The notes under the pieces: model-generated | The model's input: the letters and a program-made list of their open reading frames with translations, nothing else | The model's database searches: none | What the model was told of the DNA's origin: nothing | Shown here: positions 43,494-60,961 of the stretch, one piece after another | Numbering within the stretch: the first letter of the stretch is position 1 | Layout: each line of letters begins with the position of its first letter | Origin: Geothrix sp. PMB-07 | GTDB lineage: Bacteria; Acidobacteriota; Holophagae; Holophagales; Holophagaceae | DNA length: 64,000 nt | Direction of reading: 5' to 3' | Assembly: GCF_030758935.1 (NCBI RefSeq) | Contig: NZ_CP132333.1 | Span: forward strand, 3,162,992 to 3,226,991 | Program-made: the position numbers and the translations under genes

Positions 43494-44654
43494 ATGACCC
43501 GCCGCCTCCCCGCCGCCCTCGCCTTGCTTGCCGCGCCCGTCGTGATGGCCGCCCCGCAAGCCCCCGCGCCGTCCCCCCTTCCGGGCAAGCTCACCGTGGG
43601 CGATCCCGCTCCGGCTCTGAAGGCCTCGCGCTGGGTGAAGGGCACGCCCGTGGCCGGTTTCGAGAAGGGCCGAATCTACGTGGTGGAATTCTGGGCCACC
43701 TGGTGCGGGCCCTGCAGGCAGAGCATTCCCCACCTGACGGAGATGGCCAAGCAGTTCGAGGGCAAGGCCACGTTCATCGGCATGAGCGTCTGGGAGCGAG
43801 GAGAGGCCCCGGAGAAAGTCGAAGCCAACGTGGATGCCTTCGTGAAGGAGATGGGCGACAAGATGGCCTATCACGTGGCCCGCGATACCGGCGATGCCTT
43901 CATGGCCCAGGCCTGGATGCAGGCCGCCTCGCAGAAGGGCATTCCTGCGGCATTCATCGTGAACGGCGATGGGCAGATCGCCTGGATCGGCCACCCCATG
44001 GACGGCCTGGACAAGGTGTTGGCCAATGTCGTGGCGGAGAAGCATGATCTCGCCGCGGCCAAGGCCGACGCCGAGAAGGCCGCCGCGGCAGAGGCGCGCC
44101 GTTCCCAGGCCATCGCGGAGTTTGGCAAGCCCCTGCAGGCCGCACAGGTGGCCAAGGACTATCCCAAGCTGCTGAGCCTCGCCAAGGAAGCCGCAGCCAA
44201 ATACCCCGATCAGGCGGAGCTCTTCGATCGCCCCCGCTTCACCGCATCGCTCCATGTGGATGAGGCTCAGGCCGCCGCCATGATCGAGGCCGAAAAGGCC
44301 AAGGCCGAACCGGACATGGGCATCTTCGGCTACCTCATCGCCAGCGAGCCCGGCCTCAGCAAGGACTGGTACGCCAAGGCCGTGACCATCCTGGAAGCCA
44401 CCCTGAAGGAACCCGAGGCCAGCCCGGCCCTGCGGCCCTACCTCGCCAAGGCGCTGCACCTGGCAGGCCGCAGCAAGGAGGCGGCCGCCATCCAGGAAGC
44501 CTTCGTCAGCGAGGCCCGCGGCAAGGCGCCCGAAGCTCGACTCAAGCAGTTCGAAGCCGACCTGAAGACCTACCAGGACGCAGCCAAGGCGGAAGCAGAG
44601 ACCGCGCCCGCCGCCAAGAAACCGGTCAAGAAGAAGCCCGCAACCAAGGGTTGA
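43494..44654 (+). CDS. Secreted thioredoxin-like (TlpA/ResA family) protein with Lys/Ala-rich tail
   Basis: 386 aa starting at ATG 43494 with CGGAG upstream. The signal peptide (RLPAALALLAAPVVMAA) is followed by a TlpA-type domain with the redox site W-C71-G-P-C74 in VVEFWATWCGPC and the cis-Pro region GIPAAFIV. The C-terminal ~180 residues are alpha-helical, resemble tetratricopeptide-like repeats, and end in a Lys/Pro tail (AAKKPVKKKP). It probably controls disulfides in exported proteins; the helical part suggests a dedicated partner. A perfect 20-bp hairpin follows. Confidence 0.87.
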   Translation: MTRRLPAALALLAAPVVMAAPQAPAPSPLPGKLTVGDPAPALKASRWVKGTPVAGFEKGRIYVVEFWATWCGPCRQSIPHLTEMAKQFEGKATFIGMSVWERGEAPEKVEANVDAFVKEMGDKMAYHVARDTGDAFMAQAWMQAASQKGIPAAFIVNGDGQIAWIGHPMDGLDKVLANVVAEKHDLAAAKADAEKAAAAEARRSQAIAEFGKPLQAAQVAKDYPKLLSLAKEAAAKYPDQAELFDRPRFTASLHVDEAQAAAMIEAEKAKAEPDMGIFGYLIASEPGLSKDWYAKAVTILEATLKEPEASPALRPYLAKALHLAGRSKEAAAIQEAFVSEARGKAPEARLKQFEADLKTYQDAAKAEAETAPAAKKPVKKKPATKG

Positions 44655-44665
44655 TCCAACGCGAC

Positions 44666-44710
44666 CATGAAATGACCCGGGAGGCTGCTCGCCTCCCGGG
44701 TCATTTCATG
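44666..44710 (+). terminator. Perfect 20-bp hairpin after the TlpA-like gene
   Basis: Arms 44666-44685 and 44691-44710 are exact reverse complements, from CATGAAATGACCCGGG outward, with a 5-nt TGCTC loop, 12 nt past the stop. No T tract follows. The region from here to 44949 holds no open frame of note and must contain the promoter of the next gene, whose AGGAGG is at about 44940. Confidence 0.75.
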
Positions 44711-44949
44711 TCACCCGCAGAGTCGCATGAGTGCTCACTGAGCGGGCCTTCTAAACCCAACGCAGGAGCCCGTTCTAGATCGAAAGGCAGCGAAATTCTG
44801 GAATGTCATTCCTCCGGGGATGAAGGTGCCGAATTGTCACGCGGAGCATCCCATTCCATTTGTATGATTCCTCCGCAAGCCAATGACGCTGGCCCTCTAC
44901 AGGCCCATGCATCGCGTTCCAGCGCATCGCCATCCCGCCAGGAGGTTTC

Positions 44950-47376
44950 ATGACCGCCCGCCCGCGTTCCCAGACTTTGGTCAGCTTTGCGCTCAGTGCC
45001 CTGCTGGTGTTCGCGCTGTCGGCCTGTGGTGGCGGCTCCAAGGGCGGCGGCACCGCCAACAACGGCAGCACCCCAGGCACCACACCTCCCCCGGCTGCGA
45101 TCCCCGCGCCCACGGGATTGCAGGCCGTTGCCGCCGACAAACAGGTGTCCCTGTTCTGGGCAGCCAGCGCCGGGGCCACCAGCTACAATGTGTGGGTGGC
45201 CACCCAGAGCGGTGGTACACCTGCTTTGCTGGGCAAAGGCACCGCGACGCAGTACCTGGACACGGGCCTCACGAATGGGACGGCCCGCTACTACCGCGTG
45301 AGCGTGGTGACCAGTGCGGGGGAAAGCGCGCCCTCGTCTGAAGTGGCGGCGACCCCCAGCGCGGACGCGAACCCTCTGCCGGTGCCGGAGGATCCCACCA
45401 AGAACCAGGTCGGGCTCGGCGTGTGGTTCAACACCGACTGGGATGGCGCCTCCGCTTTCGCCGATGTCTTCAAGCAGTCGCGCCCCTGGCTGAACGCCGC
45501 CTGGAGCGCGCCTGCGCCTGTGGATGCGCAGGGCTGGCCCACGTCGGATGCCTCCACCGTGCTGTTCACCAATCCGGCCTCGGTGGTCGACGGTACCTAC
45601 AAGCTGGTCTTCACCGGCCAGGCCAAGGTGGCGGGCATGTGGTGCGGGGCGGTCATCGCGAACCAGACCTATAACGCGGCCACCAACACCACCACGGCGG
45701 ATGTGACCCTCACCAAGCAGGGTGCCGATTCCTGTGGCCTGGTCTTCACCAACACCCAGCGCACGGCCAGCAGCGCCGTGGGAACGGGCTTCACCAACGC
45801 CCGATTCTACCGGCCCGGCTACCCCGCTGACGGCAGCAAGGTCTTCACCGATCCCTTCCTCAACGCGTTCCGTGCCGCGAACGCCCGGGCGGTACGCATG
45901 ATGGATTGGGGCGGTGGCAGTTCCGATATCGTCCAGCACTGGGCCGACCGCGTGACGCCCAACAGCGCCACCCAAGGCGGGCTGCCCGCGCCGCCCTACA
46001 CGGCCCCCGATGGCACGGTGTACAAGGGCACGCTGGGCGTGGCGCTGGAACACCGGATCCAGCTCAGCAATGCCCTGATGATCGACTGCTGGATCAACAT
46101 CCCGCCCGTGGCCGACGACGACTTCGTGCTGAGGACCGCCCAGGCCCTGCGCTTCGGCACGGATGGCACCAATCCCTACACGTCACCCCAGGCGAATCCC
46201 GTGTTTCCGCCGCTGCATCCCAGCCTGCGGGTCTACCTGGAATACGCCAATGAGAACTGGAACAGCGCGGGCGGTTTCTACGCCTTTCACATCCAGCAGG
46301 CCATCTGCTCACACCTTCCCGCCGGGCACCCGCTGCTGGTGAACCCCGCCACCGACAGCATCTGGACCACCATGTGGCGCTACCCCGCCTGGCGCATGGC
46401 CGCCATCAGCGAAACCTTCCGGGGCGTCTTCGGCGATGCGGCCATGATGACCCGCGTGCGACCCCTGCTGGAAACCCAGCAGGGTGATGCGCAGGCCACC
46501 CTCAGCACCGCCCTGCGCTGGCTGGAGCCCTACGCCAAGACCTTGTCCAAGCCCCGCGCCATCTCCGATCTCCTCTATGGTGTCGGAGGCTCTGCCTACT
46601 ACGGCGTGAATGCAGGCACCAGCGCCGACCCCAACACATTCTTCGCCGCGGGCAACTATCCTGCGAAGGAGAACGTGGCTGGCTGGGCCATCGATTCCAT
46701 GTGGGCCTACAACTATGGCGTCAAGCATGTGGCCTACGAGGGCGGTCCCAGCATGGATGCCTTCAGCGAAGCGGACAACCAGCGCCTCAACGCCGATCCT
46801 CGCATGCAGACCCTTGTGCAGGCCACCCATGATGCCTGGTCTTCCGTGGGCGGCGACCTCGCCACCTACTACTGCCTCACGGGCCCCCCCACCTGGGAAT
46901 TCACACCCGACATCACCAAGACCGACAGCCCCAAGCTCAAGGCCCTGCAAGCCATCATGGCCACACCCCGGGCCCCTGTGACACTGGGCGCCGCCCTGCC
47001 CGGCAGCATCGTGGCCACGAATGCCGATATCGCCAAGGTGCGCATCCGCGCCGGATACGGCTACCCCTACACCATCGACAACCTCCCCTGCGAGGCCGGC
47101 TTCAACCTGGGTGATTGGGTGGCCTTGCCGGGCCATTCGTCGAAGGCCCTCACCGGCACCCTCACCGTCAAAGGCAATGTCAGCGCCGCCGCCCAGTTGG
47201 CGGTATGGGTCAATGGCGTCCAGCAGGGCACCGTGTCCTTCCCGGCCCCCAGTGGTGGAACCCAGCATCTGGTGGACAGCACGCCGCTGCAGGTGAACCT
47301 CCCGGCCGGCTTGACGGTGCTGCGCCTCAGCGCCGTCTCGGGTGGTTTCACGCTCTACAGCGTGGACATCAAGTAG
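44950..47376 (+). CDS. Secreted lipoprotein with Fn3 domain and glycosidase-like catalytic region
   Basis: 808 aa. A lipoprotein signal (LLVFALSAC, Cys at about residue 26) is followed by a Gly/Thr/Pro linker and a fibronectin type III domain (about 50-135). A central domain carries two motifs expected of a clan GH-A (beta/alpha)8 glycosidase: NE in LEYANE435NWN, the usual acid/base, and E597 in VAYEGGPS, a possible nucleophile. The C-terminal ~130 residues look like a beta-sandwich binding module. Similar proteins are loosely annotated as cellulose-binding. Polysaccharide attachment or cleavage is a reasonable inference; the substrate is not known. Confidence 0.7.
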   Translation: MTARPRSQTLVSFALSALLVFALSACGGGSKGGGTANNGSTPGTTPPPAAIPAPTGLQAVAADKQVSLFWAASAGATSYNVWVATQSGGTPALLGKGTATQYLDTGLTNGTARYYRVSVVTSAGESAPSSEVAATPSADANPLPVPEDPTKNQVGLGVWFNTDWDGASAFADVFKQSRPWLNAAWSAPAPVDAQGWPTSDASTVLFTNPASVVDGTYKLVFTGQAKVAGMWCGAVIANQTYNAATNTTTADVTLTKQGADSCGLVFTNTQRTASSAVGTGFTNARFYRPGYPADGSKVFTDPFLNAFRAANARAVRMMDWGGGSSDIVQHWADRVTPNSATQGGLPAPPYTAPDGTVYKGTLGVALEHRIQLSNALMIDCWINIPPVADDDFVLRTAQALRFGTDGTNPYTSPQANPVFPPLHPSLRVYLEYANENWNSAGGFYAFHIQQAICSHLPAGHPLLVNPATDSIWTTMWRYPAWRMAAISETFRGVFGDAAMMTRVRPLLETQQGDAQATLSTALRWLEPYAKTLSKPRAISDLLYGVGGSAYYGVNAGTSADPNTFFAAGNYPAKENVAGWAIDSMWAYNYGVKHVAYEGGPSMDAFSEADNQRLNADPRMQTLVQATHDAWSSVGGDLATYYCLTGPPTWEFTPDITKTDSPKLKALQAIMATPRAPVTLGAALPGSIVATNADIAKVRIRAGYGYPYTIDNLPCEAGFNLGDWVALPGHSSKALTGTLTVKGNVSAAAQLAVWVNGVQQGTVSFPAPSGGTQHLVDSTPLQVNLPAGLTVLRLSAVSGGFTLYSVDIK

Positions 47377-47529
47377 CCGCAAGGTCCATTGAAAAGTCAA
47401 CGTCACTCGCCATTCGAGATGACGAGGTAGCGATACACTGGGCCGTCCCCCCGGCTCCACCCCCCTTGCCCTCGATCCTCAGGGCGGCGGCGTCGGCCTA
47501 CTCATTTCTCACGAGACGAGGTTGCCGCC

Positions 47530-48720
47530 ATGTCTGATTCCGCCACCGAGCGAGCCGGGCGCGTTCCACCCCAGGAGCGCCTGCTCTCCCTGGATCTCTA
47601 CCGTGGCCTGTGCGTCCTCGGCATGATGATGGTCGACTGGCCCGCCGACTGGGATGCGCGCTTCAACCTCTTCAACCACGCGGAGTGGACCGGCATCACG
47701 GCGCCGGATTTCATCTTCCCTGGCTTCATGTTCATCGCGGGCGTGGCCATCCCCTTCGCCCTCCAGACGAAGAAGGCGGCTGGCGTATCCGCAGGCAGCC
47801 TCTATGGCGGCATCTTCCGCCGCAGCCTGCTGCTCTTCGCGCTGGGCTACTTCCTGAACTACTGCTGGTACTCCGGGCCCCATGGCGAATTCTCCATTTT
47901 CAGCCTGCGGCTCATGGGCGTCCTCCAGCGCTATGCGCTGGTCTATCCCATCGTCGCCATCGCCTACCTCCACCTGGATGTGAAGCGGCTGCTCTGGGGC
48001 GCGGCGGCGCTGTTGCTGGGTTACTGGGCGCTGATGGCCCTGGTGCCCGTGCCGGGCTTCGGCAAGCCTGATCTGATGCGCCTACCCCAGGGTTTGGTGA
48101 CGCCCAACCTCGCCACCTGGCTCGACCTGAAGGTGCTGCGCGGCGTCATCGGCGCGGATTCACCCTACGATCCCGAAGGCCTGCTCAGCACCCTGCCTTC
48201 CATCGCAACCACGATCATTGGCGTGGCCGCGGGCCAGTGGATCCGCCGCACCGAGCTAACCAAAGAGGATCGCGCCAACAGCCTTTTCGTCTGGGGCGTG
48301 GTGCTGGCGATGCTGGGCTACCTCTGGGGCCTGAGCTTCCCGCTGTCCAAGAAGCTGTGGTCCAGCTCCTTCGTCCTGCTCATGGGCGGCTGGAGCCTCC
48401 TTTTCTTTGCGGGGTTGTTCTGGGCCGTGGACATCAAGTCCAAGACCAGCCGCCTGCTGGCGCTGCCCCGGTGGTACGGCATGAACGCCGTGGCCGCCAT
48501 CGTGACCTTCACCGCGCTCGAAGCCGTGCTCAGCCGCCTCCCCGTGGGGCACAAGGCCAACGGCACCGCACTGGTGCTGAAGGAATTCCTGAACGACCAC
48601 CTGCTGAAATCCTGGATGCCGGACAAGCACGCCTCGTGGGTCTACTCCGTGGTCATGATCCTGCTGCTGAGCCTGTTCTTCCGCTGGCTGGACCAACGCA
48701 AGCTCTACCTGCGGGTCTGA
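47530..48720 (+). CDS. DUF5009/heparan-glucosaminide acetyltransferase-like membrane protein
   Basis: 396 aa with about ten helices. The N-terminus RLLSLDLYRGLCVLGMMMVDWP and the following TAPDFIFPGFMFIAGVAI are the hallmark of the YeiB/DUF1624/DUF5009 group. This group includes HGSNAT, a transmembrane acetyltransferase that acetylates terminal glucosamine. A role in modifying cell-wall or surface amino sugars is inferred from the family. The 153-nt gap before it contains no obvious hairpin. Confidence 0.82.
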   Translation: MSDSATERAGRVPPQERLLSLDLYRGLCVLGMMMVDWPADWDARFNLFNHAEWTGITAPDFIFPGFMFIAGVAIPFALQTKKAAGVSAGSLYGGIFRRSLLLFALGYFLNYCWYSGPHGEFSIFSLRLMGVLQRYALVYPIVAIAYLHLDVKRLLWGAAALLLGYWALMALVPVPGFGKPDLMRLPQGLVTPNLATWLDLKVLRGVIGADSPYDPEGLLSTLPSIATTIIGVAAGQWIRRTELTKEDRANSLFVWGVVLAMLGYLWGLSFPLSKKLWSSSFVLLMGGWSLLFFAGLFWAVDIKSKTSRLLALPRWYGMNAVAAIVTFTALEAVLSRLPVGHKANGTALVLKEFLNDHLLKSWMPDKHASWVYSVVMILLLSLFFRWLDQRKLYLRV

Positions 48721-48773
48721 GGAGCCGAATTTAAATTTAGAAGAAAATTTTAGTGCAATTCAATCAGATTTGA

Positions 48774-48795
48774 CACACCCTATAGCTGAGGTGTG
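48774..48795 (+). promoter_or_regulatory. Hairpin covering the clpB ribosome binding site
   Basis: Stem CACACC (48774-48779)/GGTGTG (48790-48795) with a 10-nt loop. The right arm overlaps the Shine-Dalgarno GAGGTG (48789-48794 region) just ahead of ATG 48798. It may act as a thermosensitive or protein-bound switch. The 70 nt upstream are AT-rich and must hold the promoter; no CIRCE element is present. Confidence 0.4.
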
Positions 48796-48797
48796 CC

Positions 48798-51371
<2,574 letters not shown>

Positions 51372-51514
51372 GCCTGCTTTTCAATCAAATGACTCATATA
51401 AAAAGACGTGCCTGATCAGGGTTGCCCTCGGCGCACCAGGAAGTGCCTGCAGGTGTCCCGAAACTTGTCCTGGGCGGACGCTGGTCCGATGAGGTCGGCG
51501 TACCCGGAGTCTGC

Positions 51515-52945
51515 GTGCCCCTCAAGTCCCCCATTCCGATCCTCATCGTGGATGATGAGGCTGATCTCCGTAACCTGCTGGTGGAGGCCCTCCAGGATCA
51601 GGGTTACGCGGCGGTGGGTGCCGACGGCGGAGCCCAGGCCCTGGCCCGGGTGCAGGAACAGCATTTCCCCGTGATCTTCACGGATCTGAACATGCCCGGC
51701 GGCCTGTCCGGGCTGGAGTTGTTGCGGGCGGTCCACGACCGGGATCCCCAGGCCATGGGCATCCTCATGACCGGCTATGCCACCACGGAATCGGCCATCC
51801 AGGCCCTCAAACGCGGAGCCTACGACTTCATCCAGAAGCCCTTCAAGCTGGCCGAGATCGAAGCCAGCCTGGAGCGGGCGCTGGAGCACTACCGCCTGCT
51901 GCGGGAGAACGAGGAATACCAGCAGAACCTCGAACGCATGGTGGAAGCCCGCACCCAGGAGATCCTGGGCCTGAAGAACGACATCGAGCGGCTGTTCGAG
52001 GGCTTCGTGAACGCCTCCGTGACGGCCATTGAAGCCCGCGACCCCAGCACCTCCGGCCATTCCAGCCGGGTGGCAGACCTGACCGTGGGCCTGGCCGAGG
52101 CGGTCAACGACACGCCCAACGGCCCCTACGGCGGCCTCTACTTCAACCCCTTGCAGATCCGCGAAATCCGCTACGCCAGTCTGTTGCATGACTTCGGCAA
52201 GGTGGGCGTCCGCGAGCAGGTGCTCGTGAAGGCCAAGAAAATCGAGGGCGAGCGCCTGGAGAGCATCTTCCAGCGCCTGCACCAGCGCACCCTCGAGGGC
52301 ATGCGCGACCGCATGCTCGAGGCCTGGAGCAAGGGCAGCGCCTTCGACCACGTGGCCATGGGCCTCCTCCTGAATCAGCAGGAAGAGGAAACCCGCCGAC
52401 TCATGGAACTGGTGCGCAAGAGCAACGAGCCCACCGTGCTGCCCGAGGCCGTGGCCGAAGAACTGAACCTGCTGGGAGACCTCACCTACCAGCACTGGAC
52501 CGGCGACCACCGCACCCTCATCGACACCCAGGATCTCAACCTGCTGAAGATCCCCAAGGGCAGCCTCTCGGAAGAAGAGCGCAACGAGATCCAGAACCAC
52601 GTCACCTACACCTACCGCTTCCTCAGCCAGATCCCCTGGACCTCGGAACTGGCGGGCGTCCCTGAGATCGCCTGGGCGCACCACGAGCGCCTAAACGGCA
52701 AGGGCTATCCCCGCCAGCTCAAGGAGCCCGACATCCCTGTGCAGAGCAAGCTCATGGCCGTCTCCGACGTCTACGACGCCCTCACGGCGGCGGATCGCCC
52801 CTACAAGGCCGCCGTCAGCGTGGAGCGCAGCCTGCAGATCCTGGAGCAGGAAGCCAAAGTGAACCTGTTGGATGCGGAAGTGCTCAAGATCTTCCTCGAG
52901 GCCAAGATCTACGAGCGGACGGTGGCGACAGGGCGAACGCCATGA
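51515..52945 (+). CDS. Response regulator with HD-GYP phosphodiesterase domain
   Basis: 476 aa from GTG 51515 (GGAGTC upstream; longer N-terminal extensions lack homology). The receiver domain has the phospho-acceptor D57 in FTDLNMPGG and runs to about residue 125, then a coiled linker. The HD-GYP domain carries GHSSRVADL, H225-D226 with GK, the late His in EIQNHVTYTYRF, H389-H390-E391 and G397-Y-P. It would hydrolyse cyclic di-GMP. Between the HD motif and LSEEE (351) there are about 120 residues, far more than in the classical domain. It overlaps the next gene by 4 nt. Confidence 0.88.
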   Translation: MPLKSPIPILIVDDEADLRNLLVEALQDQGYAAVGADGGAQALARVQEQHFPVIFTDLNMPGGLSGLELLRAVHDRDPQAMGILMTGYATTESAIQALKRGAYDFIQKPFKLAEIEASLERALEHYRLLRENEEYQQNLERMVEARTQEILGLKNDIERLFEGFVNASVTAIEARDPSTSGHSSRVADLTVGLAEAVNDTPNGPYGGLYFNPLQIREIRYASLLHDFGKVGVREQVLVKAKKIEGERLESIFQRLHQRTLEGMRDRMLEAWSKGSAFDHVAMGLLLNQQEEETRRLMELVRKSNEPTVLPEAVAEELNLLGDLTYQHWTGDHRTLIDTQDLNLLKIPKGSLSEEERNEIQNHVTYTYRFLSQIPWTSELAGVPEIAWAHHERLNGKGYPRQLKEPDIPVQSKLMAVSDVYDALTAADRPYKAAVSVERSLQILEQEAKVNLLDAEVLKIFLEAKIYERTVATGRTP

Positions 52946-53772
52946 TCCAGGATCCCATCCTCATCGTGGACGACGAAGTGGAGGTGCGCTCGGCGCTGCT
53001 GGAGGCCCTCACCAGCCACGGATACTCTGCCGAAGCGGTGGCCAGCAGTGAAGCCGCCCTGGTTCGTCTGGCGGAGCGCCGGTTTCCGGTCGTACTGACC
53101 GACTTCCACATGCCCGGCGGCCGGTCAGGCCTCGACCTCATCAACGAGGTGCGGCTGCGGTTTCCCGACACCCTCTGCATCCTCATCACCGCCTACGCGA
53201 CGCTGGATACCAGCATCGAGGCCATGAAACGCGGGGCCTACGATCTGGTCCAGAAGCCCTTCCGCCTGGCCGAAGTGGAGATGGTGCTGGACCGGGCGTT
53301 GGACCATGCGGCCCTGCTCCAGAAAGTCCGCCTCTATCAAACCGAGCTGGAGGATCGCATCCTCAGCCGCACCCGGGCCCTTCAGGAGGCCCATCACGAG
53401 GCGCTCGCCCTCTGCGACCTCAGCCTGCAGGCACTGGACGCCCCGGGGCTTCCCGAGGGCCTGAATCCGCTGCTGGACCGGATTGCCTCCCGCTGGCAGC
53501 CCGCTGGCCTCGGCTGCTACCGGCGCGGTGAGCAGGGCAACCTGGTGTGCCTCGCGACCCGCGGCCCGGTGCCCCTGCCCCCTTCGCTGGACCGCCCCCT
53601 GCCCGGGCCCCTGAAGGCCCCTGACCTGGGCTATGCGGAAAACCACTTCCTGCCCCTGGGAAATGCGGGTTGGCTGTACCTGGGGTTCCCCGAGCGCTCC
53701 GCCTTCTCGGAAAGCGACCCGGCTTTCCTGTTGCTCGCCCGTCACCTGGAGCTGCTCCTCCGGGTAATGTGA
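52942..53772 (+). CDS. Response regulator with C-terminal sensor-like domain
   Basis: 276 aa. The receiver domain (residues 4-125) carries acidic D10-D11, the phospho-acceptor D54 in VLTDFHMPGG, and Lys in LVQKPF. A short coiled coil (about 125-155) leads to a ~120-residue domain that looks like a degenerate GAF domain. No DNA-binding or enzymatic output is recognisable. Its receiver is similar to that of the preceding HD-GYP protein (both have MPGG, KRGAYD and QKPF wording), suggesting duplication. The start overlaps the previous gene (ATGA). Confidence 0.85.
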   Translation: MIQDPILIVDDEVEVRSALLEALTSHGYSAEAVASSEAALVRLAERRFPVVLTDFHMPGGRSGLDLINEVRLRFPDTLCILITAYATLDTSIEAMKRGAYDLVQKPFRLAEVEMVLDRALDHAALLQKVRLYQTELEDRILSRTRALQEAHHEALALCDLSLQALDAPGLPEGLNPLLDRIASRWQPAGLGCYRRGEQGNLVCLATRGPVPLPPSLDRPLPGPLKAPDLGYAENHFLPLGNAGWLYLGFPERSAFSESDPAFLLLARHLELLLRVM

Positions 53773-53776
53773 GGGG

Positions 53777-54787
53777 ATGACGCACGCGCACCAGCTCCTC
53801 TGGACCGGTTTCCGAGGCCTCGACCCAACCGGTGTGGACCTGCCCTTCCAGCCTGGGGGCGTGGTCCTGTTCGGCCGGAACCTCGATCCTGATCCAGAGC
53901 TCGGCCCCGCCCGCTGCCGTGCCCTCATCGATGGCCTTCAGGCACGCTTTGGCGCCGAGCTGCCGCTGGCCGTGGCCGTGGATCAGGAGGGAGGTCCCGT
54001 GAGCCGCCTCCGCCTCTGGACCGGCCCCACACCTGCGCTCCGCCAGCTTTGGACCTCCGGCGGCGCGCCCGCCTGCGCCCGGTGGGGACGCCTCTGGGGC
54101 GAAGGGTTGCGCCTGCTGGGATTCAACGTGGACTTCGCGCCGGTGGTGGACCTCTGGGATGGTCATGTCGGCACGGGCATTGGAGATCGGGCTGCCAGCG
54201 ACAAGTCGGCTGAGGCCGCCGCCGCCGCCGGCGCCTTCCTGCACGGGCTGGAATCCACCGGAATGCGCGGCTGCCTCAAGCACCTCCCGGGTCTGGGCGG
54301 CACCACGCTGGACAGCCACCAGGGCCTGCCAGCCTTGACTGATGAGGCTCAGGTGAACCACAACGCCGGGGCATTCATACCCTTGGCCCACGCCGATCGG
54401 CTGATCATGGTCGCCCATCTGCGCACGCCCGCCAGCGGCCCGCTGCCTGCGAGCCTCCACCGCGGTTCCGTGGCGGACAATCCCTGGCGCTTGCAGGGCC
54501 GATTCCTTCCGGACGACATGGAAATGGGCGGTTGCGCGGACTGGACCTGGGACGACCGGGTGCGCTTGGCCCTGGAAGCGGGCCACCAGTGGCTGCTGGT
54601 CTGCCAGACACCCGAAGGATGGACGGCCTGCGCGGAGGCCGCGGCGCACCTTCCTGAGCCGAGTTGGGCCCCCGCCCTGCAGGCTTCTCAAACCATGCGC
54701 CGGAACCTTCCGGCACCCCTTCCCTTCGATCCCCGGTCCTGGAAGGACTGGCTGGCGCGGCTGCAAGCGGCCGCGAAGGAGCATTGA
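53777..54787 (+). CDS. GH3 beta-N-acetylhexosaminidase (NagZ-like)
   Basis: 336 aa. GH3 motifs are VAVDQ70-EGGPVSRL, KHLPGLGGTTLD179-S-H181 with the NagZ-specific catalytic His, and the nucleophile D246 in LPDDMEMGG. NagZ removes GlcNAc from anhydromuropeptides during wall recycling. Here KHFPGHG is altered to KHLPGLG, but the catalytic residues remain. No signal peptide, so it is cytoplasmic. It lies 4 nt after a response regulator and shares one base with the GGDEF gene start (TGATG), a surprising place for a wall-recycling enzyme. Confidence 0.88.
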   Translation: MTHAHQLLWTGFRGLDPTGVDLPFQPGGVVLFGRNLDPDPELGPARCRALIDGLQARFGAELPLAVAVDQEGGPVSRLRLWTGPTPALRQLWTSGGAPACARWGRLWGEGLRLLGFNVDFAPVVDLWDGHVGTGIGDRAASDKSAEAAAAAGAFLHGLESTGMRGCLKHLPGLGGTTLDSHQGLPALTDEAQVNHNAGAFIPLAHADRLIMVAHLRTPASGPLPASLHRGSVADNPWRLQGRFLPDDMEMGGCADWTWDDRVRLALEAGHQWLLVCQTPEGWTACAEAAAHLPEPSWAPALQASQTMRRNLPAPLPFDPRSWKDWLARLQAAAKEH

Positions 54788-55710
54788 TGGCGGGCCGCAT
54801 TCTCATCGTCGACGACAACGCGATGATTCGCAGCGAGATCAAAGCCGTGCTCATGAAGGACGGCGGTTTCACGCATTTCCTGGAGGCTTCCGACGGCCTC
54901 ACCGCCTTCAAGATCATCATGGAGAATCCGCCGGATCTGGTGCTCTGCGATCTGGTGATGCCCGGCTTCGATGGATTGAAATTCCTGGGCCTCAAGGCCA
55001 GCCGCAAGGAATTGGAACAAATCCCCGTCATCATCCTCACCGCCGAGGACGACCTGGACCGCAAGGCGGAAATCCTCGAACGGGGCGCCTCCGACTACGT
55101 CACCAAGCCCTTCCATGAGAAGGAGCTGCTGGCCCGGGTGCGCATCCACACCAAGCTGAAATTGCTGCAGGACGAGCTGCGGGAAAAGAACCTCCAGCTT
55201 GAGGATCTTTCCGTGACCGATCCACTCACGGGCCTGGCCAACCGGCGCCGGCTCATGACGCGCCTCGAGGAGGAAGTCCACCGGGCCCGCCGCCTGAAGA
55301 CGCCCCTGTCCGTCGTGATGATCGACATCGATCACTTCAAGCAGGTGAACGACGCCCATGGCCACGCCATGGGCGACGAAGTGCTGCGCAACATCGGCGG
55401 CATGCTGAAAGGCAGTGTGCGGGCCACGGATCTGGCCGCCCGCTACGGGGGCGAGGAGTTGACCCTCGTCTTGCCGCACACGGACCTGCCCGCGGCCCGG
55501 CAGGTGGCCGAGAACCTCCGTCAGAAGTTCGCGGAGCTGGACCACAGCCTGGATGGCGTGTCCATCCGCAAGACTGCCAGCATGGGCGTAGCCACCCGGG
55601 AGGGGCAGGCCGATTCTCCCGATGCTGAGAACCTGCTGAAGAAGGCCGATGAGGCCCTTTATCGCGCCAAGCAAGGCGGCCGCAACCGGGTGGAAGCATC
55701 GGGGGAATAG
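54787..55710 (+). CDS. Response regulator diguanylate cyclase (receiver-GGDEF)
   Basis: 307 aa. The receiver has the phospho-acceptor D55 (LVLCDLVMPG) and Lys in VTKPF. The GGDEF domain begins at SVTDPLTGLANRR and holds the active site G221-GEEL and the product-inhibition site R212-A-T-D215 exactly five residues before it. It is a PleD/WspR-like enzyme predicted to make cyclic di-GMP on phosphorylation. It is last in the four-gene signalling operon, opposite in activity to the first gene, and followed by a two-way terminator. Confidence 0.95.
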   Translation: MAGRILIVDDNAMIRSEIKAVLMKDGGFTHFLEASDGLTAFKIIMENPPDLVLCDLVMPGFDGLKFLGLKASRKELEQIPVIILTAEDDLDRKAEILERGASDYVTKPFHEKELLARVRIHTKLKLLQDELREKNLQLEDLSVTDPLTGLANRRRLMTRLEEEVHRARRLKTPLSVVMIDIDHFKQVNDAHGHAMGDEVLRNIGGMLKGSVRATDLAARYGGEELTLVLPHTDLPAARQVAENLRQKFAELDHSLDGVSIRKTASMGVATREGQADSPDAENLLKKADEALYRAKQGGRNRVEASGE

Positions 55711-55719
55711 GCAACCGGA

Positions 55720-55754
55720 CATAAGAACGCGGCCCCTGAGGCCGCGTCCTTATG
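55720..55754. terminator. Bidirectional terminator between the GGDEF gene and metK
   Basis: Stem of 15 bp with one A-C mismatch, starting CATAAGAACGCGGCC, and a 5-nt loop. T-rich or A-rich flanks on both sides allow it to serve the two convergent genes. Confidence 0.75.
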
Positions 55755-55769
55755 AAGCGAGTTTGCGTT

Positions 55770-56912
<1,143 letters not shown>

Positions 56913-57013
56913 GCGTGACTCCTAGATGAAGCCCCTCAAACATCAGGTTGGGGGAACAATGACTATAACCCAGATACACCTTTCGGATGACGCAGGAAAC
57001 CTTGCCTTGCCTT

Positions 57014-57032
57014 AACCTTAAAGACTAAGGTT
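57014..57032. repeat. Short palindrome between metK and the coiled-coil lipoprotein gene
   Basis: Perfect 7-bp arms AACCTTA/TAAGGTT with a 5-nt spacer. It lies in the 168-nt divergent gap and may be an operator or just a small hairpin. Confidence 0.35.
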
Positions 57033-57080
57033 GGAAGATCCCGTTTTTTGGCGCACAGACCGTGCCCCGTGGAGGAACCC

Positions 57081-58214
57081 ATGAATCCATTCCGCCGTCC
57101 GACGCTGGCGCTGGCCCTGATGGCCGCGTCCATCTTGATGGTCTCGACCGCCTGCAAACGCGAAGATCCCCAGATCCGGGAGCTGACCCAGAAGGCCGCG
57201 GAAGCCGACAAGGCCAACCAGCAGCTGAACCAGGCAGGCGCCGAGCAGCAGAAAAAGCTGGCGCAGGCCGGGGTGAACGATGTGAAGCCCAATGCCGAGA
57301 CCCTGCAGCTGACGGACGAGCAGAAGAAAGCCCTGGAAGAGCGCATCAAGAACGAGAAGAACAGTTCTTACCAGGCCCTGCTCCAGGAGGTGCTGGACAA
57401 GGACAAGGAGATCAAGGAAATCAACACCAAGCTCGCCAAGCTCAAGGCCGATCTGCCCAAGCCGGACGTGGCCAAGCAGAACGACAGCCACTACGGCATG
57501 GCCATGAAATTCCTCAAGAAGAAAGGCGTGCCTGAGGCTGAAGCCAAGAAGCTGGTGAGCCGCGTGACCATCCTGGAAAAGCTGGCACCGGGCTTCGAGG
57601 TCTACCACTTCTACGCCAACGGCACCTACGGCACCTGGGTGTCCCAGGGCAAGGCCAAGATCACGCCCAACGACCTGATGCGGCAGGAGCGCGAAAAGAT
57701 CGAAGGGGAGCGGGATGAGGCCGTGGCCGCCAACGAAAAGCTGCAGGAAGAAGTGGTGGATCTCGAAGGCCAGAAGAAGAAGATCGAGGAGGAGATCGCC
57801 GGCCTCCGCTCCGAGCGCACCAACCTCATCGAAGAGCGTGCCAAGCTTCAGGCTGACAACGCCGCTCAGGTTTCCAAACTGAACTCCCTGCACTACGTCA
57901 TCGGCACCCGCGACAAACTGAAGGCCGACGGCGTCATCGAGATCCCCGTCTTCGCCAAGGACCGCGCGGGCAAGAACTGGCGCGACGAAGTCTTCACCCA
58001 GAGCCTCGACCTGCGCTCCGCCAAAACCATCACCATCAAGGCGGCCGATCTTGGCCTCAAGAAGATTGGCAAGGTGAACGTGGTACCCGGGTCCTACATC
58101 AAGGATGAGCACTACAAGCTGACCATCAGCGAGGACAAGCTCAGCGCCACCGTGGAACTCATCACCGTGAGCCGTTTTAAGAATGACAAGGTCGTCTTTG
58201 CAGTGACAGACTGA
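57081..58214 (+). CDS. Coiled-coil lipoprotein, unknown function
   Basis: 377 aa starting at ATG 57081 with GGAGG upstream. The lipoprotein signal ends at the Cys of MVSTAC (about residue 25). Charged heptad-like segments at about 28-130 and 195-270 (EREKIEGERDEAVAANEKL and onwards) predict long coiled coils. A C-terminal ~100-residue domain (VIGTRDKLKADGVIEIPVF onward) carries a beta-rich ending. The repeated pattern of helix then compact domain suggests a periplasmic scaffold. I do not recognise the family. A clear terminator follows. Confidence 0.8.
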   Translation: MNPFRRPTLALALMAASILMVSTACKREDPQIRELTQKAAEADKANQQLNQAGAEQQKKLAQAGVNDVKPNAETLQLTDEQKKALEERIKNEKNSSYQALLQEVLDKDKEIKEINTKLAKLKADLPKPDVAKQNDSHYGMAMKFLKKKGVPEAEAKKLVSRVTILEKLAPGFEVYHFYANGTYGTWVSQGKAKITPNDLMRQEREKIEGERDEAVAANEKLQEEVVDLEGQKKKIEEEIAGLRSERTNLIEERAKLQADNAAQVSKLNSLHYVIGTRDKLKADGVIEIPVFAKDRAGKNWRDEVFTQSLDLRSAKTITIKAADLGLKKIGKVNVVPGSYIKDEHYKLTISEDKLSATVELITVSRFKNDKVVFAVTD

Positions 58215-58232
58215 GCCTACCCTGAGTCAGCC

Positions 58233-58259
58233 AAAGGCCCCTTCGGGGGCCTTTGTTTT
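58233..58259 (+). terminator. Rho-independent terminator after the coiled-coil lipoprotein gene
   Basis: 9-bp stem AAAGGCCCC/GGGGCCTTT closed by a TTCG tetraloop and followed by GTTTTG. Confidence 0.92.
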
Positions 58260-58339
58260 GTCTGGCATTTCACCTGCGGGCGAACTATTGTCGGAAAACC
58301 AATTCTCCGTCCTCTTCAACTCCACCCATGAGGTGTGCG

Positions 58340-60961
58340 ATGCATCGACGCTTAAACCAAGCGGCTCTCGGAACCGTGTTGCTGACGTTGCTGGCCTGCA
58401 ACGGCGGCGGCGATTCCAAAGCCCCCATTGCCGGAACGTCGACGGGGCAGACGCCGAGCAGCACCATGGCGGCCTTCGTGCTCGACAAGGATGTGACGAA
58501 AGTGACCATCCCCCATCCCAACATTCTGGCAACAGCCACCGCGGGCGATCCGTTGGCCTCGCGTGCGCCGGCCACGCCCATGACGCCCCCTGAAGCCCTC
58601 GCCTATGTGAACCTGCACGAAATGGGCGGCACCAATGCGGTGGCCGGCATCAACGCCCCGATCTACATCCAGTTCACCGCCCCGGTGGATAAAGCGACCG
58701 TGACCCCGGCCAACATCAAGGTGTTTGAAGTCACGCCGGATGCCACGACCGGCTATGAGAACGCAGCCCTGGGCTTCACCGATATCTCCGCCACCTTCAG
58801 CTACCGCTACACGGCGGGCAGCACCGATCTCTTCCTCTTCCCGGAATTCCCCCTGCAGCCGGGCAAGCGCTACCTCTACGTGGTCACCAACCGCGTGATG
58901 GATGCCGCCACCCCCAGCAAGCCCATTTCCGCTTCTCCACAATTTGAAGCGCTGAAATCCACCACGACCCTGGCAGGCCCCCTGGCGGATCTGGAAGCCG
59001 TGCGCCGGGATAAGCTCTACGACGACACCAAGGCCCAGAACAACACCACGAACCCCCGTCTCCTGTCGGGCTACGCAAAGGTGATGGACGATCTCATTGC
59101 CGCCAGCGCCACCACCACCGTGGCCAGCCGCAGTGACATCGCGCTGCTGGGGCGGTTCATCACCACCGGCGCCGGTGCCATCTCCCTGACCACCGCCAGC
59201 CCCTCTGCCACCGGAGCCCGCCTGCTCCCGATGGAAAGCGCCCTGCGCGCCTTCGCCTTCGGCTCCGCCAATGGCCTGGGTGGCCTGTTGGCTGGTAAGA
59301 CCTGGACCAACACCATCACCGTCCCGGCCAACGATGCCAGCCACATCTACACCTTCGTGGCGGGCACTGCCGCCAGCCCCGACCTCTACTGGGCCGCGGT
59401 GCTCACTGCCGGTGGGCACACCGTCACCGCCGCGCCGACCACCGTGGGAACCGTGGTGCTGGGTTCTTTCAGCAGCGCCGACCTGTCCATTGATCCCGTG
59501 GTGGCCCAGGCCAGTGCCAACGTGGCCAACTTGAACCTGACCGGCGTCACCGGCGCCTACAACCCGGCCGCAGGCGTCACCCAGGCCTTCCGCGTGAGCA
59601 ACAACCTGGTGGGCTTCTACCACACGGATCGCACGGTGCCCTTCGTCTACATCGCGCCCAACCCCGCCGTCGTCGGCCCGGCCCCCGCAGGCGGCTGGCC
59701 CGTGGTCATCTATCAGCACGGCATCACCTCCCAGAAAGAATCCGTCATCGCCGTCGCCCAATCCCTGACCGCCATCGGCCGGGCCGTGGTGGCCATCGAC
59801 ATGCCCCTCCACGGCGCGCTCGCCGTGCCCACGCACACCACCGGCGCCTCCTGGGGCCAGGATTTCATGGCCGTGGGCGCCCCCCTGGCCACCCGCAGCA
59901 ACATCCAGCAGGGTGCCTTCAACCTCGACCGCCTGGAATTCGTCCTCCGCGCAGGAGCCTTCGCGGGCCTCGGTGCCGCGGCACCTGCCACGGATGCCAC
60001 GAAGTACAAATTCCTCGGCCACAGCCTGGGCTCCATCGTCGGCGCCTACTACCTGGCCGGAAACACCTCCTTCACCTACCCGGCCGGCCCCTCCGGGCCG
60101 CCTTACATCCAGAGCACCCTCAACGGCGACATGAAGGGTTACCTTGCCGTCCCCGGCGGGCGCACGGCCTACGTCATCCAGAACAGCCCTGCCTTCAACG
60201 GGCCCAACGCCGACCCGGCCAAGGCCTATCCCATCGATCAGGGCCTGGCCGCCAAGGGTGTCGCCACGGGCAGCCCCTCCTATCACATCTTCTTCCAGAT
60301 GACCCAAAGCGTGGTCGACCCGGCCGATCCGGCCAGCATGACCACGCCCCTGGCCGCGGGCCTGCCCAGCCGCCTCTCAGGCCGCGTCGCCATTCAGGAA
60401 TCCACCAGTTCCACCTACAGCACGACCCTGGTGGGCAAGGATCTGCTCCCCATGCCCGTAAACGGGGACACGGTCATCACCAACGCCTACACCCGCTACT
60501 TTGCCAATGCCCTGGGTGGGCGCGAAGTGCTGGGAACCACCCCCACCAATGCCGCCATCGTCAATGTCATCGCCCCGGGCTTCAAGCAGCTCGCCTATAC
60601 CGCCGGCGGAACCCCTGCCCATGCGGCCGGGGTGGTGGGCACGCCCTTCCTGCGCACCTTGACTGCGGGCGCCCTGGCCAACAAGGTGGCCGATGCGGCC
60701 ACTTCCGCCGCCGCCGCCAGCCCCACGGAAGGCTTCTTCCAGTTTGACCAGAACGCCATCGGCCACAGCTCCCTGCTGGATCCCACCCTTGATGCCACCT
60801 CCGGACCCATCAACACCGGCTTGCTGCAGAAGCAGATGCGCTACTTCCTGCTCCTCGGCATCGTCTCGGATCCCACTCAGGGCGCACCGGCACTGCCCTT
60901 GACCGTGGTCCCGGTAAAGGGTGTGCAGGCGCCCGAGTCTTACACCATCCTCGGCTACTAG
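58340..60961 (+). CDS. Secreted lipoprotein with lipase-like alpha/beta-hydrolase domain
   Basis: 873 aa from ATG 58340, placed 4 nt after GAGGTG (an in-frame ATG 12 nt upstream is possible). The lipobox is LTLLAC (Cys near residue 19). Residues about 85-190 resemble a bacterial Ig-like domain (INAPIYIQFTAPVDKATVTPANIKVF). This arrangement is seen in proteins named virulence factor lipases. The hydrolase part has VVIYQHGITSQKES as oxyanion region and the nucleophile elbow G-H-S562-L-G-S. A His near the end (NAIGHSSLLDP) may complete the triad. It is likely an outer-membrane esterase; substrate unknown. Confidence 0.83.
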   Translation: MHRRLNQAALGTVLLTLLACNGGGDSKAPIAGTSTGQTPSSTMAAFVLDKDVTKVTIPHPNILATATAGDPLASRAPATPMTPPEALAYVNLHEMGGTNAVAGINAPIYIQFTAPVDKATVTPANIKVFEVTPDATTGYENAALGFTDISATFSYRYTAGSTDLFLFPEFPLQPGKRYLYVVTNRVMDAATPSKPISASPQFEALKSTTTLAGPLADLEAVRRDKLYDDTKAQNNTTNPRLLSGYAKVMDDLIAASATTTVASRSDIALLGRFITTGAGAISLTTASPSATGARLLPMESALRAFAFGSANGLGGLLAGKTWTNTITVPANDASHIYTFVAGTAASPDLYWAAVLTAGGHTVTAAPTTVGTVVLGSFSSADLSIDPVVAQASANVANLNLTGVTGAYNPAAGVTQAFRVSNNLVGFYHTDRTVPFVYIAPNPAVVGPAPAGGWPVVIYQHGITSQKESVIAVAQSLTAIGRAVVAIDMPLHGALAVPTHTTGASWGQDFMAVGAPLATRSNIQQGAFNLDRLEFVLRAGAFAGLGAAAPATDATKYKFLGHSLGSIVGAYYLAGNTSFTYPAGPSGPPYIQSTLNGDMKGYLAVPGGRTAYVIQNSPAFNGPNADPAKAYPIDQGLAAKGVATGSPSYHIFFQMTQSVVDPADPASMTTPLAAGLPSRLSGRVAIQESTSSTYSTTLVGKDLLPMPVNGDTVITNAYTRYFANALGGREVLGTTPTNAAIVNVIAPGFKQLAYTAGGTPAHAAGVVGTPFLRTLTAGALANKVADAATSAAAASPTEGFFQFDQNAIGHSSLLDPTLDATSGPINTGLLQKQMRYFLLLGIVSDPTQGAPALPLTVVPVKGVQAPESYTILGY

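Follow-up and report, generated by a model that had tools for sequence, protein, structure and literature searches.

A NagZ-type glycosidase gene kept beside an HD-GYP regulator gene in most Holophagaceae, within an apparent four-gene operon in Geothrix

Does a gene for a cell wall recycling enzyme that lies among cyclic di-GMP (c-di-GMP) genes tie wall turnover to the c-di-GMP level, or is it only expressed together with them? The question is raised by a 64,000-nucleotide stretch of Geothrix sp. PMB-07 (contig NZ_CP132333.1, positions 3,162,992 to 3,226,991; here, the window), held in the single-contig, 4.24-Mb genome of a member of the genus Geothrix (Holophagaceae, Acidobacteriota). Between clpB and a convergent metK, four genes follow one another head to tail on one strand:

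51515 to 52945, plus strand: response regulator with receiver (REC) and HD-GYP domains, 476 amino acids (open reading frame [ORF]; Pfam Response_reg and HD/HD_5)
52942 to 53772, plus strand: RR2, a receiver followed by a long helix and, at the C terminus, a small alpha/beta domain that is at best GAF-like (ORF, Pfam Response_reg, structure model)
53777 to 54787, plus strand: NagZ-type glycoside hydrolase family 3 (GH3) beta-N-acetylhexosaminidase, predicted to be cytoplasmic (ORF; Pfam Glyco_hydro_3, 100.5 bits)
54787 to 55710, plus strand: REC-GGDEF diguanylate cyclase with GGEEL and an I-site RxxD (ORF; Pfam Response_reg and GGDEF)

The explanation that we favor, tentatively and with somewhat less than even confidence, is that the four genes form one operon in which an orphan c-di-GMP module is co-expressed with a housekeeping NagZ, no signal from NagZ products being needed. 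The gene order, its conservation and its exceptions, the intact catalytic residues, the single NagZ-type copy, and a promoter-like element were all found by computation. A first-pass annotation, made from the sequence of the window, had described the genes as joined by contacts of 1 to 4 nt with no histidine kinase in the cluster, and both descriptions stand. The three junctions, read from the ORFs and the junction sequence, measure -4, +4, and -1 nt: the RR2 start overlaps the HD-GYP end by 4 nt, GH3 starts 4 nt past the RR2 end, and GH3 and the cyclase meet in TGATG with a 1-nt overlap. Pfam detected no histidine kinase domain among the eight proteins scanned between 47530 and 58214, so the cognate kinase of a complete two-component system is absent from this interval.

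GH3 and the HD-GYP protein were searched for in the same 77 Holophagaceae genomes, and the neighborhoods of the matches were then read. GH3 stands behind the HD-GYP gene, directly or after RR2, in 52 of the 60 genomes in which the locus is readable, and 8 have an HD-GYP gene without GH3 behind it; 6 more could not be judged since a contig ends at the locus (G017, G025, G026, G027, G056, and G063), and 11 have no orthologous HD-GYP match. The 52 genomes comprise 43 from a scripted list and 9 recognized by coordinates (G010, G015, G020, G029, G032, G037, G047, G068, and G072), including G068, whose GH3 frame contains a stop. They span eight genera (g1, which is Geothrix, g3, and g5 to g10), and the junctions are of a few nucleotides in most of the HD-GYP/GH3 loci. 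Upstream lie clpB in g1, g3, g4, g5, g6, and g10, an Amidase_3 gene in g7 and g8 (an N-acetylmuramoyl-L-alanine amidase directly upstream of HD-GYP at L064:3776-4585, L093:690-1379, and L069:10740-11429), or DUF4136 and VanZ-like genes in g9; downstream lie the cyclase and metK, metK, clpP, or a Na/H exchanger gene. Because the pair is kept under such varying flanks, it is the stable unit; with 52 of 60 genomes, the adjacency is more than chance. The four-gene order, whose conservation the first-pass annotation had proposed to survey, is ruled out as a conserved unit. The cyclase, found behind GH3 only in g1 and one g5 genome, is a single late addition, made in one change on the tree, and RR2 is variable, its presence changing about six times against two for the absence of GH3; these counts come from a quickly built tree, supported by SH-aLRT values only and with several rows incomplete, and they omit truncated loci (four for GH3, namely L135, L136, L138, and L139, three for RR2, and eight for the cyclase). 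Loci without RR2 were recognized by the RR2 search landing on HD-GYP itself, and the short receiver-only gene of L068 was counted as absence of RR2. Outside the family, GH3 relatives are at most 46% identical among the matches listed for 396 genomes of the phylum, and none of those matches places GH3 and HD-GYP on one contig; in 20 outgroup GH3 neighborhoods (9 to 12 kb), no HD-GYP or GGDEF domain like those of the window was found at an E value of 1e-4.

The first-pass annotation had counted a GH3 gene lying elsewhere in close relatives as evidence against its proposal, and in part of the relatives that is where GH3 lies. Seven Geothrix-lineage genomes whose operons lack GH3 form one clade (support 91). 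Four of them (G039, G040, G041, and G048) keep clpB, HD-GYP, RR2, the cyclase, and metK, with a 72-nt gap in the place of GH3; in the others (G038, G043, and G045), RR2 and GH3 are both gone, and HD-GYP overlaps the cyclase by 4 nt. No NagZ motif was seen as a GH3 remnant in the 72-nt gap between RR2 and the cyclase in the one of the four loci that was translated (L127). Six of the seven genomes carry a GH3 gene elsewhere ("type B"), and none was found in G045. In G052, HD-GYP and GH3 lie 69 kb apart. The pair is broken in the other direction in the g2 genomes (0.9 to 1.2 Mb), where GH3 adjoins metK, and in two g11 genomes, all of which keep GH3 with no HD-GYP match. Since the pair is broken in both directions, neither wall recycling nor the HD-GYP c-di-GMP module requires the other in cis.

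The type-B sequences form a clade (100/99) within the GH3 proteins of the family, with members from g1, g7, and g9, so that a transfer or an old duplication is their likely origin; an unrelated enzyme is ruled out by this nesting. Operon-type and type-B GH3 coexist in G066 and G070. MurQ is encoded within about 1.5 kb of type-B GH3 in 8 of 10 loci; in the remaining two, the contig ends nearby (G017) or MurQ is on another contig (G063). Around the gene lies what looks like a catabolic cluster for N-acetylmuramic acid (MurNAc) or muropeptides, judged by domain tests confined to L079 and L076: L079:921-10060 and L076:708-9734 hold genes for GHL10, NagX-like, AmpG-like, MurQ, NagB-II-like, GH3, and sodium:solute symporter proteins, with NagK-like and Amidase_2 genes in L076, and such clusters also occur in L075, L078, and L083. 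This content supports a wall-sugar role for the type-B lineage. The pattern suggests that the operon GH3 became dispensable after a second GH3 arrived.

The exceptions also feed the leading rival, which we consider unlikely: a housekeeping NagZ would have landed beside HD-GYP in the ancestor of the family and stayed there since breakage of an operon is costly, with no functional link. The seven-genome clade and G052 fit it, as the remainder of the operon has not decayed after GH3 left, and so do the retention of GH3 without HD-GYP in g2 and g11 and an adjacency that is not seen outside the family among the matches listed. However, the pair has outlasted repeated change of RR2 and is found in no fewer than three contexts upstream and four downstream, which synteny inertia alone does not predict.

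Evidence on the extent of the transcript comes from the flanks of the operon:

51460 to 51492, plus strand: GAAACTTG-N17-TCCGATGA, a conserved promoter-like element some 53 nt ahead of the HD-GYP start codon
51506 to 51509, plus strand: GGAG ribosome-binding site for the HD-GYP gene (sequence; same position conserved in the alignment)
48798 to 51371, plus strand: clpB, the upstream neighbor, ending 143 nt ahead of HD-GYP
55720 to 55754, no strand assigned: strong hairpin in the interval where the cyclase and metK converge (fold of 55705 to 55770, -28.4 kcal/mol, z -4.18)
55770 to 56912, minus strand: metK, the convergent downstream neighbor (ORF and Pfam)

Of 55 loci, 35 have the pattern AACTT-N15-20-CCGA in the 300 nt ahead of HD-GYP (33 of 35 in g1, 2 of 2 in g3, and 0 of 18 other family loci); it matches once in the window. 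It was not found upstream of ClpB (n = 43), MetK (n = 42), GH3 (n = 83), the cyclase (n = 34), or the 57-kb gene (n = 37); one RR2 row with the pattern is the misassigned L139, a truncated HD-GYP. Because the element stands only ahead of HD-GYP, it supports a single start for the operon transcript in Geothrix and g3. Genome-wide, the strict pattern occurs once and the loose pattern 11 times versus 4 in a reversed control, and only L167 and L169 among the ten other loose sites were judged to lie less than 100 nt upstream of a predicted ORF start; these scans do not establish a regulon for the element. A flagellar sigma-28 promoter is ruled out by the wrong spacing between the two islands, judged against the sigma-28 consensus, and the element may be an extracytoplasmic function (ECF)-type or a weak housekeeping promoter. 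The HD-GYP start codon is GTG at 51515, with the conserved GGAG ahead of it; a longer frame with a TTG start, from 51422, is not supported, as the added stretch shows no conservation of a coding frame, some relatives having 1-nt indels there. The clpB gene is probably a separate unit, and the hairpin is the probable transcript end; it was not listed by a U-run terminator scan, and a simple promoter/terminator scan of 50800 to 56000 returned nothing. No Rfam family reached threshold in 44000 to 60000, and the c-di-GMP riboswitch RF01051 had no match in the genome, which shows little as control genomes gave none either. The 3' end of clpB (codons 801 to 857) recurs in additional copies, 75 to 84% identical, in the clpB/HD-GYP gap of L040, L044, L045, L047, and L051, with two copies in L047.

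The operon GH3 is probably the NagZ of the cell, because its catalytic residues are invariant and it is usually the only GH3 gene. The protein has 336 amino acids, PF00933 spanning residues 27 to 279, and consists of the barrel alone, with no C-terminal domain; its start leads directly into the barrel, and no signal peptide is evident from reading of the sequence alone. Aligned to NagZ structures, including 4gvf (a Salmonella-type NagZ), it matches the K-H, D-S-H, and D-D motifs. Seven key positions do not vary among the 45 operon copies, and D246, D179, and H181 are constant in these, in 10 of 10 type-B proteins, and in 20 of 20 outgroup proteins; the positions of the catalytic nucleophile Asp and of the Asp-His dyad are taken from the 4gvf alignment. 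The protein thus shares with the NagZ of peptidoglycan recycling its size, cytosolic form, KH-P-G-x-G motif, D-S-H dyad, and nucleophile Asp. It differs in being a family-specific branch embedded in a c-di-GMP operon and in scoring 108.9 bits against the NagZ equivalog cutoff of 207 (NCBIfam NF003740), for which reason "NagZ-type" is the safe name rather than certified NagZ. No other NagZ-like gene was found in the genome, where two further GH3 genes are long frames of 742 and 759 amino acids and not NagZ sized, and in the majority of the 77 family genomes the operon type is the sole PF00933 match. AnmK is encoded in the genome of the window and in 64 of the 77, and the predicted NagZ-type GH3 and AnmK fit wall-sugar recycling. 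A NagX-like gene (glucosamine N-acetyltransferase family, 162 bits, below cutoff) lies upstream of clpB at 47530 to 48720 and was not seen in the same place in the other loci whose neighborhoods were compared.

The phosphodiesterase and the cyclase, like GH3, appear to be catalytically intact. In the HD-GYP protein, HD, HHExxxGxGYP, and the metal ligands show no variation in 52 of 53 rows, and the remaining row is truncated. The protein shares the REC and HD-GYP domains and all metal and motif residues with REC-HD-GYP phosphodiesterases of the RpfG type but differs in its NagZ-type partner, in having no linked kinase, and in a helical insert of about 115 residues that interrupts the HD-GYP domain at about residues 236 to 350. 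Its model is of moderate quality (pTM 0.52), and the best PDB sequence match of the HD-GYP domain is the cGAMP-specific 5z7c (77 bits), which is no test of specificity. Insert-type HD-GYP domains are widespread among the 396 phylum genomes, mostly ending frames of 530 to 850 amino acids; the genome of the window has a second one, 64% identical, at G000:C1:1652569-1653546 (in L141), its match containing one in-frame TGA, and in most family genomes a long protein carries such a domain. All three receivers of the operon keep the phospho-acceptor Asp. In 33 of 34 rows, the cyclase keeps GGEE, the RxxD I-site, and D197. This residue, which governs guanine specificity, is Asp here and Ser in the Hypr enzyme GacA, on the assumption that D197 maps onto S347 of GacA. 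A Hypr or cGAMP cyclase is ruled out by this Asp. An S347D mutant of GacA is on record (PMC6456294). Like PleD and DgcR (best NCBIfam scores, 266.5 and 197.4 bits), the cyclase has REC followed by GGDEF, with GGEE and RxxD; unlike them, it falls below both equivalog cutoffs, reads GGEEL rather than GGEEF, and arrived late in its operon.

RR2 is modeled (pLDDT 90) as a receiver, a 57-residue helix, and a small alpha/beta domain, the C terminus giving weak Pfam GAF_2 matches in 4 of 16 orthologues (best E value, 0.013). In fold searches with RR2 and HD-GYP, most matches were to receiver domains and to multidomain regulators such as NtrX and PorX. The receiver of RR2 shares about half of its residues with the HD-GYP receiver encoded alongside it (the mean of 55% includes a faulty 100% row, L139, a truncated HD-GYP matched via its receiver), the coil about a third, and the cyclase receiver is about a third identical to that of RR2. 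Being nearer to the HD-GYP receiver, RR2 probably arose by tandem duplication of the front half of the HD-GYP protein. In L060 (G051), the RR2 slot is filled by a second full-length HD-GYP gene, 79% identical to the first.

NagZ might alter a muropeptide (N-acetylglucosamine [GlcNAc]-anhydroMurNAc-peptide or a product of it) that the RR2 C terminus or HD-GYP senses, thereby changing c-di-GMP. An alpha/beta domain after a long helix, the weak GAF_2 matches, and Amidase_3 directly upstream of HD-GYP in g7 and g8 are in line with this, as is work on Enterobacter cloacae in which deletion of nagZ raises c-di-GMP (PMC11197897). Yet many operons keep GH3 without RR2, HD-GYP and GH3 each occur without the other, and the Enterobacter effect runs through expression of an unlinked MASE1-EAL gene, ECL_03795, and not through an HD-GYP neighbor or operon, so that what is shared is a tie between NagZ and c-di-GMP degradation (PMC11197897). 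We regard such sensing as improbable, and still more so its extension to an ancestral Holophagaceae unit of HD-GYP and NagZ, in which muropeptide flux read by the receivers would set c-di-GMP and the wall amidase joined in g7 and g8. Just as doubtful is that NagZ recycling feeds an amino-sugar/fructose-6-phosphate pool for matrix polysaccharide and is therefore expressed with matrix regulators: Pseudomonas fluorescens insertions in nagZ, anmK, ampG, and amgK cut alginate yield, which that study explains by sugar-phosphate supply (PMC5210274), and the NagX-like gene upstream of clpB agrees, but the core partner is a phosphodiesterase, expected to lower matrix production, the genome has no convincing MurQ, and the operon has no polysaccharide genes. 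Either study makes a link plausible, and neither shows one in Geothrix; no description of an HD-GYP/NagZ operon was found in literature searches limited to open-license PMC papers.

Since HD-GYP and GH3 are separable both ways, co-expression fits better than an obligate signal. In the operon that we favor, a single promoter just upstream of HD-GYP would read all four genes. Its old core would be an orphan c-di-GMP phosphodiesterase, with its kinase elsewhere, and the only NagZ of the cell; the cyclase would have been added later, in Geothrix, and RR2, the tandem receiver-half copy, gained and lost. Unlinked kinases would switch the receivers, which would set c-di-GMP, and NagZ would be a normal cytosolic glucosaminidase of wall recycling that supplies AnmK. 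Through their common transcript, recycling capacity would follow the conditions under which the phosphodiesterase is needed, and NagZ products need not touch the signaling proteins. Co-transcription, the enzyme activities, and the reason for co-expression are what we infer from the computed observations.

Several points weigh against this explanation. Loss of GH3 leaves a tight operon, with 72 nt between RR2 and the cyclase or a 4-nt HD-GYP/cyclase overlap, and because the operon persists in this form, co-expression with NagZ is not essential. Co-transcription of the four genes is deduced from their sequence, conserved gene pairs can persist without function, and Holophagaceae genomes are related, so that 52 of 60 reflects descent as well as selection. 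No convincing MurQ was found in the genome (best match, 32 bits), which bears on the fate of MurNAc-6-phosphate. The pairing is real and widely kept, and its functional link is unproven and clearly separable. Of the first-pass proposal that the operon connects NagZ to the c-di-GMP level, the apparent unit and a conserved HD-GYP/GH3 pair survive, with no sign that NagZ products set c-di-GMP; such a signal is possible and unsupported in the Geothrix data.

The locus illustrates how a cyclase is added to an orphan c-di-GMP operon and how accessory receivers enter and leave such operons. Across most of the family, a NagZ-type gene is tied to a cyclic-dinucleotide phosphodiesterase, and comparison with the lineages that carry either half alone can test for a functional tie between wall recycling and c-di-GMP, such as the Enterobacter study suggests.

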